A stretch of 64,000 nucleotides of DNA from Clostridiales bacterium FE2011 (GTDB lineage Bacteria; Bacillota; Clostridia; Christensenellales; Aristaeellaceae), in NCBI GenBank assembly GCA_017569305.1, contig CP069418.1, positions 1,922,001 to 1,986,000 of the forward strand. The letters run 5' to 3'. This document shows, piece after piece, positions 52,699 through 58,862 of the stretch. The notes beneath the pieces were generated by a model. It made no database searches, had not been told where the DNA came from, and saw nothing but the letters and a program-made list of their open reading frames with translations. The position numbers and the translations under genes were made by a program. Every line of letters begins with the position of its first letter. Within the stretch, counting starts at the first letter, position 1.

Positions 52699-54093
52699 TC
52701 AGTCCAGTTCTTCCGCTTCCGGTTCCGCCTTCTTCGGCGCACCCATCCGCTTCCACTTGCCGGACAGCAGGTAAGCCGTGCCGATCAGGAAGGGAACCAG
52801 GCCGGAGAGCGCGTTGCCGTACCAGAAGCCCCGGATACCCCAGGCGAAGGTGACGCCCAGCAGCAGGCTCAGGCCGATGCGGGTGAAGATGCCGTCCAGC
52901 AGGGCAACCGCCAGGTTCAGTTTGGAATTGCCGGATCCGTTGATGAGGGCGAAGTTCGGCGGCCGCAGGACGCAGCCCAGATACTGGATCATGGCGATGG
53001 GAATATAGGTGATGGCCATGGCCAGTACTTCAGGATCCTGGGAGAACAGGCCGAAAAGCCATTCCGGTTTGAACAGGGTAATCACGGCGAAGACGGCGGC
53101 CGGAATCGCAACGATCCACATGGCGTGGCCGACTACCTTCGGCACCCGTTCCGTCTTTCCGGCACCCAGCGCCTGGGAAACCATTGCGCCGCCAGCGGAG
53201 GAAATGGCCTGGCTGACCACGCCGATCATGTTCTCCAGCTTCCGGGCAACGCCGGTGACGGCTACGGCCACCGTGCCGTAGGTGTTGATATAGGAATTGA
53301 CGAACAGCATGGAGAAGGTGATGGCAGCGCTCTGGATGACCATGGGGATGCCCAGGCTCAGCAGCTGATTGATCACGTTTTTATAGATCCGGAAATGCCG
53401 GGGCTTGAAATCAAAATGGATCTGCTCCCGGTTTTTGTACAGCAGCCGCAGGGCAAAGAGGAAGCTGACGGCCTGGCCGATGACCGTGGCCAGGGCGGCG
53501 CCCAGCGGACCCATGCCCAGGGGGCCGACGAACAGGATGTCCAGGACGACGTTGATGACGGAAGCAATGGCAATAAAGATGAAGGGATGCTTGGAATCAC
53601 CCATACCGCGGAGGATGGCGCTAACCAGGTTGTAGCCGTAGATGAAGACTACGCCCCACACGCAGGTAATGCAGTACTGGCGGGTGTATTCCCAGATATC
53701 TTCCGGTGTGTTCAGCCAGTTGATGATTCCCTTGTAGGTAAACAGGAAGATCACCATGATGATCACGGCCAGGCCTTCCAGCAGGGTGAACAGGGTGCCC
53801 ACCATCTCGCCCACCAGGTCATGGCGTTTCGCACCCACGTAGCGGGAAATCAGGATCTGCCCCGCGTTGGAAAAGCCCATGGCCACGAAGGTGATCAGCA
53901 TCAGCACTTCACCGCCGATGGACACGGCGGAAAGACCCTGTGTGCCGACAAAATTGCCGACAACGATCATGTCCACCATGTTGTAGACCATCTGCAGCAG
54001 GCCGGAAAGGAAAAGCGGCATCGAGAACGTCAGCAGCGTTTTCGGCACGCTGCCCGTCGTCAGATCCCGGATCAGTGCGTTCTTTTTCTCCAT
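52699..54093 (-). CDS. MATE family efflux transporter
   Basis: A 464-residue exporter close to the NorM/DinF-type group common in Firmicutes. It begins MEKKNALIRDLTTGSVPKTLLTFSMPLF, then GLLQMVYNMVDMIVVGNFVGTQGLSAVSIGGE, and has twelve helices in two halves. The C-terminus is a charged tail of about 20 residues (KKAEPEAEELD). The ATG follows a weak GAGATGG site. It faces the T-box-controlled gene across a 534-base gap. Confidence 0.93.
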   Translation of the reverse strand: MEKKNALIRDLTTGSVPKTLLTFSMPLFLSGLLQMVYNMVDMIVVGNFVGTQGLSAVSIGGEVLMLITFVAMGFSNAGQILISRYVGAKRHDLVGEMVGTLFTLLEGLAVIIMVIFLFTYKGIINWLNTPEDIWEYTRQYCITCVWGVVFIYGYNLVSAILRGMGDSKHPFIFIAIASVINVVLDILFVGPLGMGPLGAALATVIGQAVSFLFALRLLYKNREQIHFDFKPRHFRIYKNVINQLLSLGIPMVIQSAAITFSMLFVNSYINTYGTVAVAVTGVARKLENMIGVVSQAISSAGGAMVSQALGAGKTERVPKVVGHAMWIVAIPAAVFAVITLFKPEWLFGLFSQDPEVLAMAITYIPIAMIQYLGCVLRPPNFALINGSGNSKLNLAVALLDGIFTRIGLSLLLGVTFAWGIRGFWYGNALSGLVPFLIGTAYLLSGKWKRMGAPKKAEPEAEELD

Positions 54094-54243
54094 CTCAAAC
54101 CCCGTAAAACTTAAAATTCAACATCTTTCACTATACCACATTTTCCCGTGAATACCAGAGACCAAATCACGGCATTTCGGGGACAAAAGTTATTCAAAAA
54201 CAGCGTTTCACGTTGTTTTTGTACTGTATTTGTTACAAACCCC

Positions 54244-54272
54244 TTGACACCTTATTTTCCGCGTGCTACACT
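54244..54272 (+). promoter_or_regulatory. Promoter of the T-box transcript
   Basis: Consensus TTGACA (54244-54249), 17 bases, TACACT (54267-54272), with an extended -10 TG. Confidence 0.8.
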
Positions 54273-54278
54273 TCAGGC

Positions 54279-54545
54279 AATTTCATACAAGGCTGTGACG
54301 AAGACGGAACAGCAGGAAGCCCCACAGAGAGCCGGGTATGGTGTGAACCGGCGGGCCGAAGCTTCATCCCATCGCTTCCGAGCCGGAGATCCGAAAGGTT
54401 GATCCCAGTAGGCGTCTCCCGTGACTGCTGCGTAAAGGCATAGGACATGATAGTGTCTGAAGTGGTGTGCAAAGGCGCACAATTTGAGTGGTACCGCGAG
54501 CCAACATGGCCCGTCTCAAAAATGAGACGGGCCATTTATTTATTC
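54279..54545 (+). promoter_or_regulatory. T-box leader, best-guess specifier ATC (isoleucine)
   Basis: A tRNA-sensing riboswitch. In order: the 5' GTGACGAAGAC stretch, the AGAGAGCCGG T-loop region with GGTGTGAACCGG, a candidate specifier ATC at 54389-54391 (CGGAG-ATC-CGAA), the T-box sequence GAGTGGTACCGCG (54486-54498), and a strong terminator GGCCCGTCTCA/TGAGACGGGCC with TTTATTTATT (54506-54544). TGGT would pair with a tRNA ending ACCA, as isoleucine tRNAs do. Uncharged tRNA would open the terminator and switch on the gene at 54628. Specifier identity is judged by alignment from memory to known leaders and is less certain than the T-box itself. Confidence 0.92.
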
Positions 54546-54627
54546 CCGGCCATCCGATTCAGGCATTCTGCTGTATGAAAGACCAGGACTTACATACCTT
54601 GCATTGTAAAGAGAGGAGCGTTTCCAG

Positions 54628-56898
54628 ATGACAACCAGGACTGACCTGAGCCAATTGAGTGCGGTTGCTTCCCGTATCCGTGAAATGCGGGAGATCATGG
54701 GCTGGACCCCTGAGGAAATGGCGGAAAAGACGGAGGTAACCGTTGCGGAATACCTCGATTACGAAGCCGGCCAGACCGACATGCCCTTTACTTTCATCTA
54801 CAAGTCCGCCCAGGCTTTCAACATGGAGCTGACGGAACTGCTGGAAGGCCACAATGCTTTCCTGTCCACCTACACGGTGACCCGCCGCGGCAAGGGCGAA
54901 ACCACCGCGAAGGAAGAAGGCATCGCCATTTCGAACCTGGCGCCGAAATTCCGGGATAAGGTGGCGGAGCCTTACTGGGTTCGCTATGAATATTCCGAAA
55001 AGCAGCAGAATGAGCCGATCCATACGACCACCCACAAGGGACAGGAATTCGACCTGGTGCTTTCCGGCAGCCTGAAGGTCCAGGTCGGCGACCATACCGA
55101 GATCCTGGAGGAAGGCGACAGCATCTATTACAACTCCTCCCTGCCGCACGGCATGATCGCCGTGAACGGGAAGGACTGCGTCTTCCTGGCGATGATCCTT
55201 CCGGTTGAAGGACAGCAGAGCGGCGCTGATTTCGCGGCCGTACCCAAGGCTGCCCGGTATGAGGGTCACCTGGTTGCCGAGAAGTTTATTGACGCGAAGG
55301 AGGATGAGCAGGGAAGGCTCACTTCCATCAGCTTCCCGAATCATGAAACCTTCAACTTCGGTTTTGATATCGTGGACGAGATCGCCCGCAAGTATCCGGA
55401 TAAGCTGGCCATGCTCTATGTGGACAAGCATCATGAGGAGCGCCGCTTCACCTTCAAGGATATCAAGGACGCCTCCAACCAGTGCGCCAACTATTTCACA
55501 TCCCTGGGAATCAAGCGGGGCGACCGGGTCATGCTGGTGCTCAAGAGGCACTATCAGTTCTGGTTCTCCATGGTGGCCCTGCACAAACTGGGCGCCATCG
55601 CGATCCCCGCAACCAACCAGCTGAAGGAGCATGACTTTGAGTACCGCTTCAACGCTGCCGGCGTCAAGGCCCTGATCTGCACGGCCGACGGGGACACTGC
55701 CGAGATCGCCGAGCGGGCCGCCGCCAAGTGCCCCAGCGTGGAAACCCTGATCATGGTCAACGGATCCCGGGAGGGCTGGCATGACCTGAATGCGGAATAT
55801 CCGCTCTTCACCCGCCGCTACCGCCGTCCGGAGGACGCCTCCTGCGGCAACGAACCGGCGCTCATGTTCTTCACTTCCGGCACCACAGGCAATCCGAAGA
55901 TGGCCCAGCACCGTCATACTTACGCCCTGGGACATTATGTTACGGCGAAGTACTGGCACTGCTGCGAGCGGGACGGTCTCCACTTCACCATTTCCGACAC
56001 CGGCTGGGGCAAATCCCTCTGGGGCAAGCTTTACGGCCAGTGGCTGTGCGAGGGTGCGGTTTTCGTCTATGACTTCGATAAGTTCGACGCGGCGGATATC
56101 CTGCCCATGTTCAAGAAGTACAACATCACGACCTTCTGCGCACCGCCCACCATGCTCCGGATGTTCATCAAGGTGGACCTGGCCAATTACGACCTCAGCT
56201 CCATTCACCATATGACTACCGCCGGCGAAGCCCTCAACCCCGAGGTCTACCGCCAGTTCGAGAAGGCTACGGGCCTGCAGATCATGGAAGGCTTCGGTCA
56301 GACAGAAACCACGCTGACCATCGGCAACCTGGCCGGTACCGTGCCGAAGATCGGTTCCATGGGTAAGGCCAATCCCCAGTACGACGTGGATATCGTGGAT
56401 CCGGACGGCAATTCCGTTGCCAGCGGTGAAGTGGGCGAGATTGTTATCCATACCGACAGGAATGTTCCCTGCGGCCTTTACCGGGAGTATTACCTGGACG
56501 AGGAAAAGACGAAGGAAGCCTGGCACGACGGCATGTACCACACCGGCGACACAGCCTGGCGGGATGAGGACGGCTACTTCTGGTATGTTTCCCGGATTGA
56601 CGACGTTATCAAATCCTCCGGCTACCGTATCGGGCCGTTCGAGATCGAATCCGTCATCATGGAGCTGCCCTACGTGCTGGAGTGCGGCGTTTCCGCCGAA
56701 CCGGATGAAATCCGCGGCCAGATCGTCAAGGCCTCCATTGTCCTGACCAAGGGCACGGAAGGAACCGAAGAGCTCAAAAAGGAAATCCAGCAGTATGTCA
56801 AAGAGCATACCGCACCTTACAAATATCCCCGCAAGATTGTCTTCCGGGACGAACTGCCCAAGACGATCTCCGGCAAGATCCAGCGCAACCTGCTGTAA
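54628..56898 (+). CDS. XRE-cupin-acyl-CoA synthetase fusion (AMP-forming, MACS-like)
   Basis: A 756-residue fusion. Residues 10-68 form an XRE-type HTH (IREMREIMGWTPEEMAEKTEVTVAEYLDYEAG). Residues 105-180 form a cupin (TTTHKGQEFDLVLSGSLKVQVGDHTEILEEGDSIYYNSSLPHG). From about 220 to the end is an AMP-dependent synthetase of the medium-chain acyl-CoA synthetase type: the phosphate loop FFTSGTTGNPK, GFGQTETT, YHTGD and the adenylate Lys region near the end (PKTISGKIQRNLL). It joins a carboxylic acid to CoA with ATP. GAGAGGAG precedes the start. The T-box leader makes it an amino acid starvation gene. No other genes of the pathway are in the window. Confidence 0.9.
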   Translation: MTTRTDLSQLSAVASRIREMREIMGWTPEEMAEKTEVTVAEYLDYEAGQTDMPFTFIYKSAQAFNMELTELLEGHNAFLSTYTVTRRGKGETTAKEEGIAISNLAPKFRDKVAEPYWVRYEYSEKQQNEPIHTTTHKGQEFDLVLSGSLKVQVGDHTEILEEGDSIYYNSSLPHGMIAVNGKDCVFLAMILPVEGQQSGADFAAVPKAARYEGHLVAEKFIDAKEDEQGRLTSISFPNHETFNFGFDIVDEIARKYPDKLAMLYVDKHHEERRFTFKDIKDASNQCANYFTSLGIKRGDRVMLVLKRHYQFWFSMVALHKLGAIAIPATNQLKEHDFEYRFNAAGVKALICTADGDTAEIAERAAAKCPSVETLIMVNGSREGWHDLNAEYPLFTRRYRRPEDASCGNEPALMFFTSGTTGNPKMAQHRHTYALGHYVTAKYWHCCERDGLHFTISDTGWGKSLWGKLYGQWLCEGAVFVYDFDKFDAADILPMFKKYNITTFCAPPTMLRMFIKVDLANYDLSSIHHMTTAGEALNPEVYRQFEKATGLQIMEGFGQTETTLTIGNLAGTVPKIGSMGKANPQYDVDIVDPDGNSVASGEVGEIVIHTDRNVPCGLYREYYLDEEKTKEAWHDGMYHTGDTAWRDEDGYFWYVSRIDDVIKSSGYRIGPFEIESVIMELPYVLECGVSAEPDEIRGQIVKASIVLTKGTEGTEELKKEIQQYVKEHTAPYKYPRKIVFRDELPKTISGKIQRNLL

Positions 56899-56916
56899 TC
56901 TCCGGAACAGAAACGG

Positions 56917-56948
56917 AAAAGGACCGGTCCATTCGGACCGGCCCTTTT
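56917..56948. terminator. Bidirectional terminator
   Basis: AAAAGGACCGGTCC-ATTC-GGACCGGCCCTTTT between the synthetase gene and the convergent EAL gene. Confidence 0.85.
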
Positions 56949-56960
56949 CATTGACGCCTT

Positions 56961-58862
56961 TCAGCAGGCTTTATTCATCTGCATGGTCTGTTCCACAAAC
57001 TCATCCATCGGCACGGGCTGGGAGAAGTAATATCCCTGCAGGTAGTCGCAGCTGATATCCTTCATGGCGCCGGCCATTTCTTCTGTTTCGATACCCTCGG
57101 CGGTAATGCTCAGGTTCATCCGCTTGAAGCCTTCCACCAGGGCGGGAAGCAGCATGTCTTTTTCCTTGCAGTAGTTCCAAACGACTTCCATGTCGATCTT
57201 GATGTTGGTGAAGGGATACTGGCGAACCCGGGAAAGGTTGGAGTAGCCGCTGCCATAATCGTCCAGGGAAAACTCAAAACCGTTGTTGTGCAGGCCGGTG
57301 ATCTGGTCCCGCAGGAGCGAGAAGTCAATCATGCTCTGTTCCGTAATCTCCAGGTGGATCATCTTTTCATCCACATGATATTCCTTCAGGATTTCCGCAA
57401 AACGGGAAGGAACGTCACGGCTCATGAACTGCACCGGGCTCAGGTTGACGTTGATCCACTGGATGCCCATGGCTTCCATGTCATGGTCCCGGATAAACCG
57501 GCAGACCTTGGCAAGTACCTGCTCGCCCAGCCGTACGATATAGCCTTCCTGCTCCGCCATGGAGATGAACAGATCGGGCCGGATCAGGTTTCCGTTGTCA
57601 TCCCGCAGCCGGACCAGGGCTTCCGCCGCGATCCGCTTTCCGGTTTTGCTGTCCATCAGCGGCTGGAGGAACACTTCCAGTTCATCCCGGTCCAGGGACT
57701 TTTCCAGGCACCGGCGGATCTCCAGCTTCTGGTTGATTTCATCAATGGAATCCATGAGGGAGCGGCTGGTATCCGGTTCGGCAACGCGGCTCAGTTCGTC
57801 CAGGGAAATCATCAGGGTGTTGACCAGCCGGTCGGAGGGACAGTTCATCAGATCCATATCCGCTTCCACAAAGGAAATGCCCAGCCGCAGTTCGCCGGCA
57901 CCGGTTTTCCAGGGGCCGGTAAAGCGCTCGCTGAGCTTCTGGCGCAGCTCCGCCAGGTCGGGTTCGTTCTGTCCCACCATGGCGTAGGAGCCGCCCCGCA
58001 GATAGAAACTGCTCAGATGGGGGAAATTATCCAGCAGGTATTTGTTGATGCCGATCAGGGCGTCATCCATCTGCTTTCCGCCGAAAATTTCCCGGTGTTC
58101 ATTATAGTTCTGGATGGTGAAACCAAGCACCCGGCAGGGTTTCTTTCGCTGCCAGCATTCGCCCAGCAGTGCGTGGAAAGCCGGAAGGTTATAGACATAT
58201 CCCCGCTCAGAGAGGTAAAGATCCGGGTTCAGGAAGGAAATGAAGATCACCACGATGGCCATCAGGCAGAAGGTGTTCATGACCACAATATTCGGCAGCA
58301 GGAAACGGGCGACAATGCCGGCTTTCAGGACAACCTGGATGGCCAGCAGGCTGATGATTTCGTGAGCGCTCAGTTCCTTCAGGTGCCGGAGAATACCGAT
58401 GGTGGCAAAAGTCAGGTAACAGCAGTCACAGGCGAAGATCGTCCAGTAAAGCTGCCCCTGGTGGAATCCGTCTTCAATGCGGAACAGCAGATGGGTCCAC
58501 GGCGTAGTCAGCGCAATCAGCACGCAGGGAATATATACAATTGGAGCAAAGACACGCAGGCGTGACCAGATCAGTGACTTGGAGTCCAGCACGCTCACGG
58601 TGAAGACAAAGAACATATAGGAACGGACATATACAAAAATGAAATACAGCACATTGACGACCCAGAGCAGTTCGGACGCATGCTCCGGCCAGGTCTCGTT
58701 CAGGCGGAAGGAGGCAACCTCAAGGATTTCCGTGCAGATATCAATGACCAGAATGGCCAGGAATGCACGGTTCAGTCGGATTGGCAGCCTTGGACGGAAG
58801 AAGTAGTACCCCATGATGACCAGCAGGATCAACATGCTTGGAACGGTGAAGCTGTAGTTCAT
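56961..58862 (-). CDS. Membrane cyclic di-GMP phosphodiesterase (degenerate GGDEF, EAL)
   Basis: A 633-residue protein. About eight membrane helices fill residues 1-215. A degenerate GGDEF domain (about 225-365) has RGGSYAM in place of the GGDEF motif, so no cyclase activity is expected. An EAL domain (about 385-625) keeps the catalytic set: AAEALVRLR, NVNLSP, LEITEQS, LDDYGSGYSN, IKIDM, AEGIET, LQGYYFSQP. It should hydrolyse c-di-GMP. The start at 58862 (MNYSFTVPSML) leads directly into helix 1; an earlier in-frame ATG at 58967 sits at the predicted transcription start. The ribosome site is weak. Confidence 0.88.
   Translation of the reverse strand: MNYSFTVPSMLILLVIMGYYFFRPRLPIRLNRAFLAILVIDICTEILEVASFRLNETWPEHASELLWVVNVLYFIFVYVRSYMFFVFTVSVLDSKSLIWSRLRVFAPIVYIPCVLIALTTPWTHLLFRIEDGFHQGQLYWTIFACDCCYLTFATIGILRHLKELSAHEIISLLAIQVVLKAGIVARFLLPNIVVMNTFCLMAIVVIFISFLNPDLYLSERGYVYNLPAFHALLGECWQRKKPCRVLGFTIQNYNEHREIFGGKQMDDALIGINKYLLDNFPHLSSFYLRGGSYAMVGQNEPDLAELRQKLSERFTGPWKTGAGELRLGISFVEADMDLMNCPSDRLVNTLMISLDELSRVAEPDTSRSLMDSIDEINQKLEIRRCLEKSLDRDELEVFLQPLMDSKTGKRIAAEALVRLRDDNGNLIRPDLFISMAEQEGYIVRLGEQVLAKVCRFIRDHDMEAMGIQWINVNLSPVQFMSRDVPSRFAEILKEYHVDEKMIHLEITEQSMIDFSLLRDQITGLHNNGFEFSLDDYGSGYSNLSRVRQYPFTNIKIDMEVVWNYCKEKDMLLPALVEGFKRMNLSITAEGIETEEMAGAMKDISCDYLQGYYFSQPVPMDEFVEQTMQMNKAC

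Follow-up and report, generated by a model that had tools for sequence, protein, structure and literature searches.

The window, that is the whole stretch of 64,000 nucleotides analysed here (G000:C1:1922001-1986000), carries a T-box leader RNA followed on the same strand by the gene of an acyl-CoA synthetase (ACS). The leader (54286-54521, plus strand) matches the T-box model RF00230 over its full length, and the gene (54628-56898, plus strand) encodes a protein of 756 amino acids, in which a helix-turn-helix (HTH) domain of the XRE type and a cupin domain precede the synthetase. This HTH-cupin-ACS type, with an isoleucine (Ile) T-box, is named ACS_A, and a paralogous type with a valine (Val) T-box is named ACS_B. 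The window's own genome, that of Clostridiales bacterium FE2011 (G000), is a single contig of 3.56 Mb and is 97.5% complete; the nearest named records are metagenome-assembled genomes of gut Clostridia, from goat omasum, water buffalo rumen and sheep duodenum among others. To our knowledge, little has been worked out about branched-acid-activating enzymes and their control in uncultured gut Clostridia. An earlier note, made from the sequence of the window alone, had proposed that isoleucine starvation switches on the scavenging of 2-methylbutyrate; the locus, its relatives and the pathway genes are analysed here.

The leader and its isoleucine specifier

A complete T-box leader with promoter, T-box motif and terminator had been described in the earlier note, and the leader, the motif and the terminator were all recovered. 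The RF00230 match scores 74.4 bits (E = 2e-16 in 441 nt, 3.9e-16 genome-wide), which lies below the gathering score of 93, so that a default Rfam scan of the window is blank. Dismissing the leader on that blank scan would be wrong, since a permissive scan recovers the full-length match. Eleven T-box matches at E <= 1 were found in the own genome, three above the gathering score and eight below it, the latter including the trpE and thrS leaders. The promoter stands less firmly: TTGACA-17 nt-TACACT is present on the plus strand at 54244-54272 with 10 of 12 consensus matches, but such a site is weak alone, with one found in 54000-57000 against 1.6 expected in shuffles. Just upstream of it lies an imperfect, terminator-like palindrome (54195-54221), which may be an operator or a terminator. 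Between promoter and leader runs a conserved AATTTCATA-like stretch, which was considered as an operator and dropped, since such a stretch also precedes the T-boxes of the own LeuA-like gene and trpE.

All elements of the leader lie on the plus strand. In Stem I, the GAAG strand of the helix beside the specifier (54300-54303) pairs with CUUC (54375-54378), and this helix (helix 2) is 100% paired in 37 aligned leaders; the AGAGA motif of the apical region (54326-54330) is placed by the RF00230 alignment and the 37-leader alignment. The antiterminator (UUGAG-UGGUACC-GCG ... CGUCUCAA; 54484-54519), taken from the RF00230 alignment, is nearly invariant. It holds the T-box bulge UGGUACC (54489-54495), whose UGGU is complementary to a tRNA 3' end with A73 and fits A73 of the own tRNA-Ile(GAU) and tRNA-Val(UAC); as a control, the thrS leader has UGGA and tRNA-Thr(GGU) has U73. 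Mutually exclusive with the antiterminator is an intrinsic terminator hairpin of 13 pairs followed by U-rich TTATTTATTC (54506-54535), the 11 inner pairs of which (helix 4) are 95.7% paired, with two-sided changes in four. The region 54270-54545 folds with z = -3.47, and none of 200 shuffles was equally stable. Across the 37 leaders, the pairs of Stem I and the terminator are 97.5% paired, with two-sided changes in 10 of 23 pairs and a covariation of 0.269 against 0.158 when shuffled, a value reached in 0 of 500 shuffles. The antiterminator adds no covariation evidence because its pairs, 100% formed, hardly vary. At six loci (L157, L161, L164, L180, L190 and L197), some 200-500 nt separate the T-box from the gene downstream of it, and L161 has repeated DNA in between.

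The specifier is AUC (54371-54373), an isoleucine codon, as had been read in the earlier note. In the Infernal alignment it sits under the RF00230 model columns 'uuc', where control leaders of the own genome show UAC or UGG. A script keyed to the Stem I helix and the k-turn also reads AUC, then G, then CUUC. Run on own-genome controls, the script returned UGG for trpE, a TrpB-like gene and a TrpX-like transporter, UAC for an aminotransferase-like gene and a sodium:solute symporter (SSS) transporter, and CCG for proS; ACC was obtained for the thrS leader only with a 5-bp helix, and the LeuA-like and UUC leaders, unreadable by the script, were read by eye. Eighty named loci of relatives served as the sample for the leader counts and for the counts of VorB and branched-chain aminotransferase (BCAT) genes given below. 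AUC was found in all 78 readable ACS_A leaders of these loci, 71 by script and seven by eye (L124, L161, L177, L179, L191, L196, L197), the leaders of L159 and L162 being cut by contig ends. In the 37-leader alignment AUC is invariant (A90 T91 C92). Across relatives, the helix beside it shows compensating changes around a constant AUC (GAAG/CUUC, GGAG/CUCC, GGGG/CCCC, GAGG/CCUC, GAAAG/CUUUC), and GGAA/UUCC occurs among other copies. Phylum-wide, a homolog at E <= 1e-150 was found in 38 of 398 genomes. Among 29 loci from this sample, five have an upstream T-box, all with AUC by eye and all with Gly at residue 461, which is discussed below; the other 24 have no upstream T-box by the patterns used, and the position holds Ala, Leu or Met.

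The synthetase, its valine twin and residue 461

In agreement with the earlier note, the gene encodes an AMP-forming acyl-CoA synthetase, with an AMP-binding domain (residues 250-610, 55375-56457, 229.5 bits), an AMP-binding_C domain (residues 672-750, 56641-56877, 78.3 bits) and the core motifs TSGTTGNPK at 416 and LPKTISGKIQR at 743. The HTH-cupin half goes beyond that note. It comprises an HTH_19/HTH_3 domain (residues 15-74, 54670-54849; HTH_19 32.1 bits with a cut-off of 30.2, HTH_3 27.4 bits with a cut-off of 23) and a Cupin_2 domain (residues 130-189, 55015-55194; 45.9 bits, cut-off 27.2), all on the plus strand. The half is kept in both ACS_A and ACS_B, and His136, Gln139, Glu140 and His174 of the cupin, invariant in 25 A/B copies, likely form a metal site. 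A structure model of the half is of moderate confidence (pLDDT 70.3, pTM 0.43) and shows helices between residues 4 and 73; its best Foldseek match is 1y9q, an HTH_3 regulator (E 1.1e-13), and the cupin part aligns with 6b8w at a TM of 0.83, normalised by 6b8w. In some relatives, the HTH-cupin and synthetase halves seem to be separate frames, with stops inside the match. It may be speculated that the HTH-cupin half provides a second, product-sensing layer and that ACS_A is a trigger enzyme, in a logic like that of BirA.

The closest solved relative of ACS_A is 3etc (Macs of Methanosarcina acetivorans), with 614 bits over residues 239-753 and identity at 263 of 515 aligned residues, counted with a 99% identical copy (L122). 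A passage in PMC10455477 states that the 3etc enzyme prefers 2-methylbutyrate, in line with what the earlier note had said of an archaeal MACS-type synthetase.

A second full-length copy, ACS_B, lies elsewhere in the own genome (G000:C1:959339-961606) and had likewise escaped the earlier note; it is 62% identical to ACS_A and has its own T-box, which reads GUA. All 38 ACS_B copies found in the named loci carry a T-box reading GUA (37 by script, L158 by eye), and GUC (L042, L057/L101) and GUG (L047/L088) were found outside this set, a third-base synonymous change as a real Val specifier predicts. T-boxes thus stand upstream of the orthologs in many relatives, with Ile for A copies and Val for B copies. 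In several f16 genomes, ACS_A is followed by an ACS_B that lacks a separate T-box. A homolog in G192 that lacks the HTH-cupin half is preceded by a T-box read by eye as GUC (Val; L089:1-1390, minus strand; L254) and perhaps stands in place of ACS_B. Within the order, 200 genomes were sampled, 42 with a full-length HTH-cupin-ACS gene (by hand tally, G100 being counted from two contig pieces) and 158 without; the T-box motif was found in 31 of the 41 gene-bearing genomes examined (the leader of G013 being unreadable and G100 lying outside the 41).

In the catalytic half, when 93% conservation is required within A and within B, residue 461 (codon 56008-56010, plus strand; DTGW-G-K) is the only position that tells the two apart. 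Gly was found in 93/93 A rows and Ala in 49/49 B rows, rows that are partly near-identical, with some genomes in both collections. Ten further separating positions all lie in the HTH-cupin half. In the alignment with acetyl-CoA synthetase 9g79, residue 461 falls on the Val of GWVT and, judged from this motif, is the probable equivalent of Acs V310. According to a passage of PMC8511477, V310, T311, V386 and W414 of Acs lie within 4 A of the acetyl group, and mutating them changes the substrate. Replacement of Gly461 by Ala would remove room for about one methyl group, which matches the difference between 2-methylbutyrate and isobutyrate. A tally of codon and residue over 155 rows gave Gly with AUC in 94 and Ala with GUA in 40, with GUC in two and with GUG in one, while 16 were without a reading. 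Of the leftovers, one is a misread Ala row, really GUA (L158), and the other is the Gly row of L159 with GUG, rejected as an exception since that leader is cut at a contig end and the letters are not leader. In 60 further regions, partly overlapping the earlier ones and read by eye, Gly occurred with AUC 16 times, Ala with GUC once and Ala with AUC once (L277, taken up below). A tree of 103 catalytic domains contains three independent Gly/Ala-codon contrasts on well supported branches, and all three agree; even in G104, where the catalytic domains of A and B group as sisters, the residue and the codon differ in the expected manner.

Since specificity within the enzyme superfamily is hard to predict from sequence, ACS_A might also be thought to act on an arylacetate or another short acid, its Ile T-box having been captured by chance. 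Such a capture sits badly with an Ile specifier kept across many genera, a Val specifier in the sister copies and the reported preference of the 3etc enzyme (passage in PMC10455477). Furthermore, other genes of the own genome would suit aryl acids: a separate IorA (above cut-off) accompanied by an IorB-like and a PaaK-like ligase gene, and a further ACS next to an IorAB-like pair. Action on such acids is therefore considered extremely improbable.

Pathway genes and the proposed salvage

Among ilvC and ilvD, searched without ilvB, ilvA and cimA, no match was found in the own genome (E 0.001) or in three same-genus genomes, and the bacterium seems to lack the usual route to isoleucine and valine. 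The 2-oxoacid:ferredoxin oxidoreductase (VOR) on which the earlier proposal depended is present: VorB scores 567.6 bits (cut-off 399) and is adjoined by VorA- and VorC-like subunits, found as a TPP-type (TPP_enzyme_C) and a POR-gamma protein. The own BCAT also lies above its TIGR01123 cut-off (314.9 against 250.05, with a 241-aa part), as does the BCAT copy of an operon in a relative. In the order sample, VorB was above cut-off in 117 of 200 genomes, namely 41/42 with the full-length gene versus 76/158 without (Fisher p 2e-10), whereas ilvC was found in 4/42 versus 58/158 (p 0.0006) and ilvD in 3/42 versus 57/158 (p 0.0001), statistics that ignore kinship.

Linkage was observed in relatives. 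Many of them have a set of ACS_A, ACS_B, a P-loop NTPase, a ferredoxin, VorB, VorA and VorC, with BCAT either preceding or following the VOR genes. In 15 of the 42 genomes, VorB and an ACS copy are neighbours, no more than about 2 kb apart, on the same strand in 14 and divergent in G192. In the named loci, VorB was within the fetched stretch in 43 of 80, and 35 of these 43 had BCAT and 35 a B copy; of the 67 loci whose sequence extends 6 kb or more 3' of the gene, 39 have it on the same strand and one on the other.

The best NCBIfam match of ACS_A is MbcS (NF047394), at 446.2 bits against a cut-off of 850, so that ACS_A is not a member by that model. MbcS is used to supply 2-methylbutyryl-CoA for the priming of anteiso fatty acids, and ACS_A could in the same way make a primer for branched lipids, its T-box merely reporting a shortage of the usual precursor; 2-methylbutyryl-CoA could even serve both lipid and amino-acid uses. 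Yet amino acids are the better fit for the linkage to VOR and BCAT seen in relatives and for the Val sister gene, and the own genome has a better priming candidate in a third homolog without the HTH-cupin half (L079:4361-6010), which lies among biotin carboxylase, carboxyltransferase and FabA-like genes and possibly activates branched primers. A primer role for ACS_A is thus judged improbable.

The opposite direction of flux was also considered, in which branched-chain amino acids would be oxidised via VOR to acyl-CoA and the synthetase would be catabolic. Both VOR and BCAT can run in either direction, and anaerobes often use VOR for catabolism; but a T-box turns on at amino acid shortage, which is the wrong sign for catabolism, the AMP-forming type of ligase spends ATP, and the own genome is without an ilvC or ilvD match. 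This direction is accordingly rated as very improbable.

The locus is very probably the isoleucine arm of a tRNA-gated salvage, in which the shortage of each amino acid switches on the activation of the matching branched acid for reductive carboxylation. When isoleucine is short, uncharged tRNA-Ile(GAU) would pair with the AUC specifier and the UGGU bulge, the tRNA-bound leader would form the antiterminator, and RNA polymerase would read on into ACS_A. The enzyme is predicted to convert 2-methylbutyrate to its CoA ester, which VOR would reductively carboxylate to 3-methyl-2-oxopentanoate, and the branched-chain aminotransferase would yield isoleucine. ACS_B, behind its Val T-box and with Ala in place of Gly461 narrowing the pocket by about one methyl, would likewise lead isobutyrate to valine. 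The scavenging switch of the earlier note is supported and widened: neither the specifier nor the ferredoxin oxidoreductase speaks against it, and the missing ilvC and ilvD matches, the Val-T-box paralog, the VOR/BCAT linkage and the likeness to 3etc add further support.

Several observations weigh against this reading. The specifier loop is without the usual AGUA/GAA letters, which may be the reason for the sub-threshold RF00230 score, and the base 3' of AUC is often C, whereas a purine is usual after a T-box specifier (passage in PMC7583486). One Ile-T-box (AUC) copy, L277 of G048, carries Ala461, and the contrasts on the tree are too few for significance (sign test p 0.25). The T-box motif was absent by pattern search upstream of the full-length copy in 10 of the 41 order genomes examined (by hand tally G146, G016, G079, G109, G037, G007, G050, G124, G150 and G162); among these, the same-genus G079 has one full-length copy, of type B. 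Four of the 42 gene-bearing genomes, all of f13, keep ilvC, and many genomes without HTH-cupin-ACS are also without ilvC. VorB was not found in 27 of the 67 named loci that reach at least 6 kb past the gene's 3' end, and ACS_A, ACS_B and VOR lie far apart in the own genome, at 1.98, 0.96 and 0.81 Mb.

A leucine (Leu) unit was found as well. T-boxes with Leu codons (by eye, CUG for the own genome and CUC for each of the seven further leaders) precede a LeuA-like gene (L001, L080 and L081, at the end and start of G000:C1; L087:257; L148, L177, L186, L187, L192, L194). This gene is followed by a TIM-barrel-AMP-ligase fusion in the own genome, L087, L177, L186 and L187, while L148, L192 and L194 end too soon; no T-box was found at 13 of 20 loci with a LeuA-like gene, the start of one of the 13 being cut. 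The LeuA-like proteins score below the cut-offs of the LeuA models. An ordinary step of the leucine route was set aside for this gene, since leuB, searched without leuC and leuD, had no match in the own genome at E <= 1e-30. Conversion of isovalerate to leucine is a natural guess for the unit. The chances appear evenly balanced that the salvage has three arms, each with its own T-box and ligase: Ile with ACS_A, Gly461 and 2-methylbutyrate; Val with ACS_B, Ala461 and isobutyrate; and Leu with the TIM-barrel-AMP-ligase fusion, its LeuA-like partner and isovalerate. In such a scheme the codon would report the specificity, one pocket residue would switch along with it, and the HTH-cupin half may sense the product.

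Since the specifier names the end product, DNA sequence would allow the substrates of hard-to-assign acyl-CoA synthetases to be predicted, and the choice between Gly and Ala at 461 offers a sharp enzymological test. If the salvage is true, acid activation would join the jobs of T-boxes, and the loci could serve to mark branched-acid scavengers in metagenomes of the rumen and hindgut.

Some further observations were made in the own genome. At L076 (G000:C1:772000-786000), the IorA gene, the IorB-like gene and the PaaK-like ligase gene lie directly beside a TrpX-like transporter gene with a UGG (Trp) T-box, a possible link from indoleacetate to tryptophan. Another TrpX-like substrate-binding protein (L007) has a T-box read as UUC (Phe), which suggests a Phe transporter, and a thiamine pyrophosphate (TPP) riboswitch lies near the sodium:solute symporter gene with a UAC (Tyr) T-box (L003, L082). 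At G000:C1:2125178-2125412 (L204, L230), three tRNA genes carry odd anticodons (4-base tgta, cta, tat) and are perhaps of mobile origin.

Comparison with known systems

The leader shares with transcription-terminating T-boxes of RF00230 the Stem I specifier, the AGAGA apical motif, the UGGUACC bulge complementary to the tRNA 3' end, and an antiterminator exclusive with an intrinsic terminator. It differs in that it precedes an acyl-CoA synthetase, a kind of T-box control of which no report was found among the matches listed in titles and abstracts of the open-licence literature. With the XRE-cupin regulators 1y9q and 6b8w, ACS_A shares the order of HTH then cupin, but its putative DNA-binding half is fused to a synthetase.

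Macs (3etc) and ACS_A share Gly at the position of residue 461, and the CoA-site Gly-Tyr, Arg and two Tyr of Macs seem present in ACS_A (SGYR, IRGQ and APYKY, in our own mapping). In contrast to Macs, ACS_A carries the HTH-cupin half fused to its N-terminus and seems to have Arg in place of Lys461 of Macs, and its substrate is a predicted one. MbcS is likened to ACS_A as its best NCBIfam match over the catalytic part, from which ACS_A is set apart by the score far under the cut-off, the T-box and the HTH-cupin half.

The chemistry itself is old. Passages in PMC7356843 and PMC2812497 describe the carboxylation of isobutyrate and 2-methylbutyrate in rumen anaerobes and methanogens, and PMC7356843 cites papers of the 1960s and 1971 for the resynthesis of branched-chain amino acids by rumen microbes, with branched volatile fatty acids as the starting material. 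The earlier note had named the route from 2-methylbutyrate to isoleucine in rumen bacteria. The proposed salvage shares with this known carboxylation the sequence of acyl-CoA, reductive carboxylation and transamination, and differs from it in that the proposed activating enzymes sit behind amino-acid-specific T-boxes.

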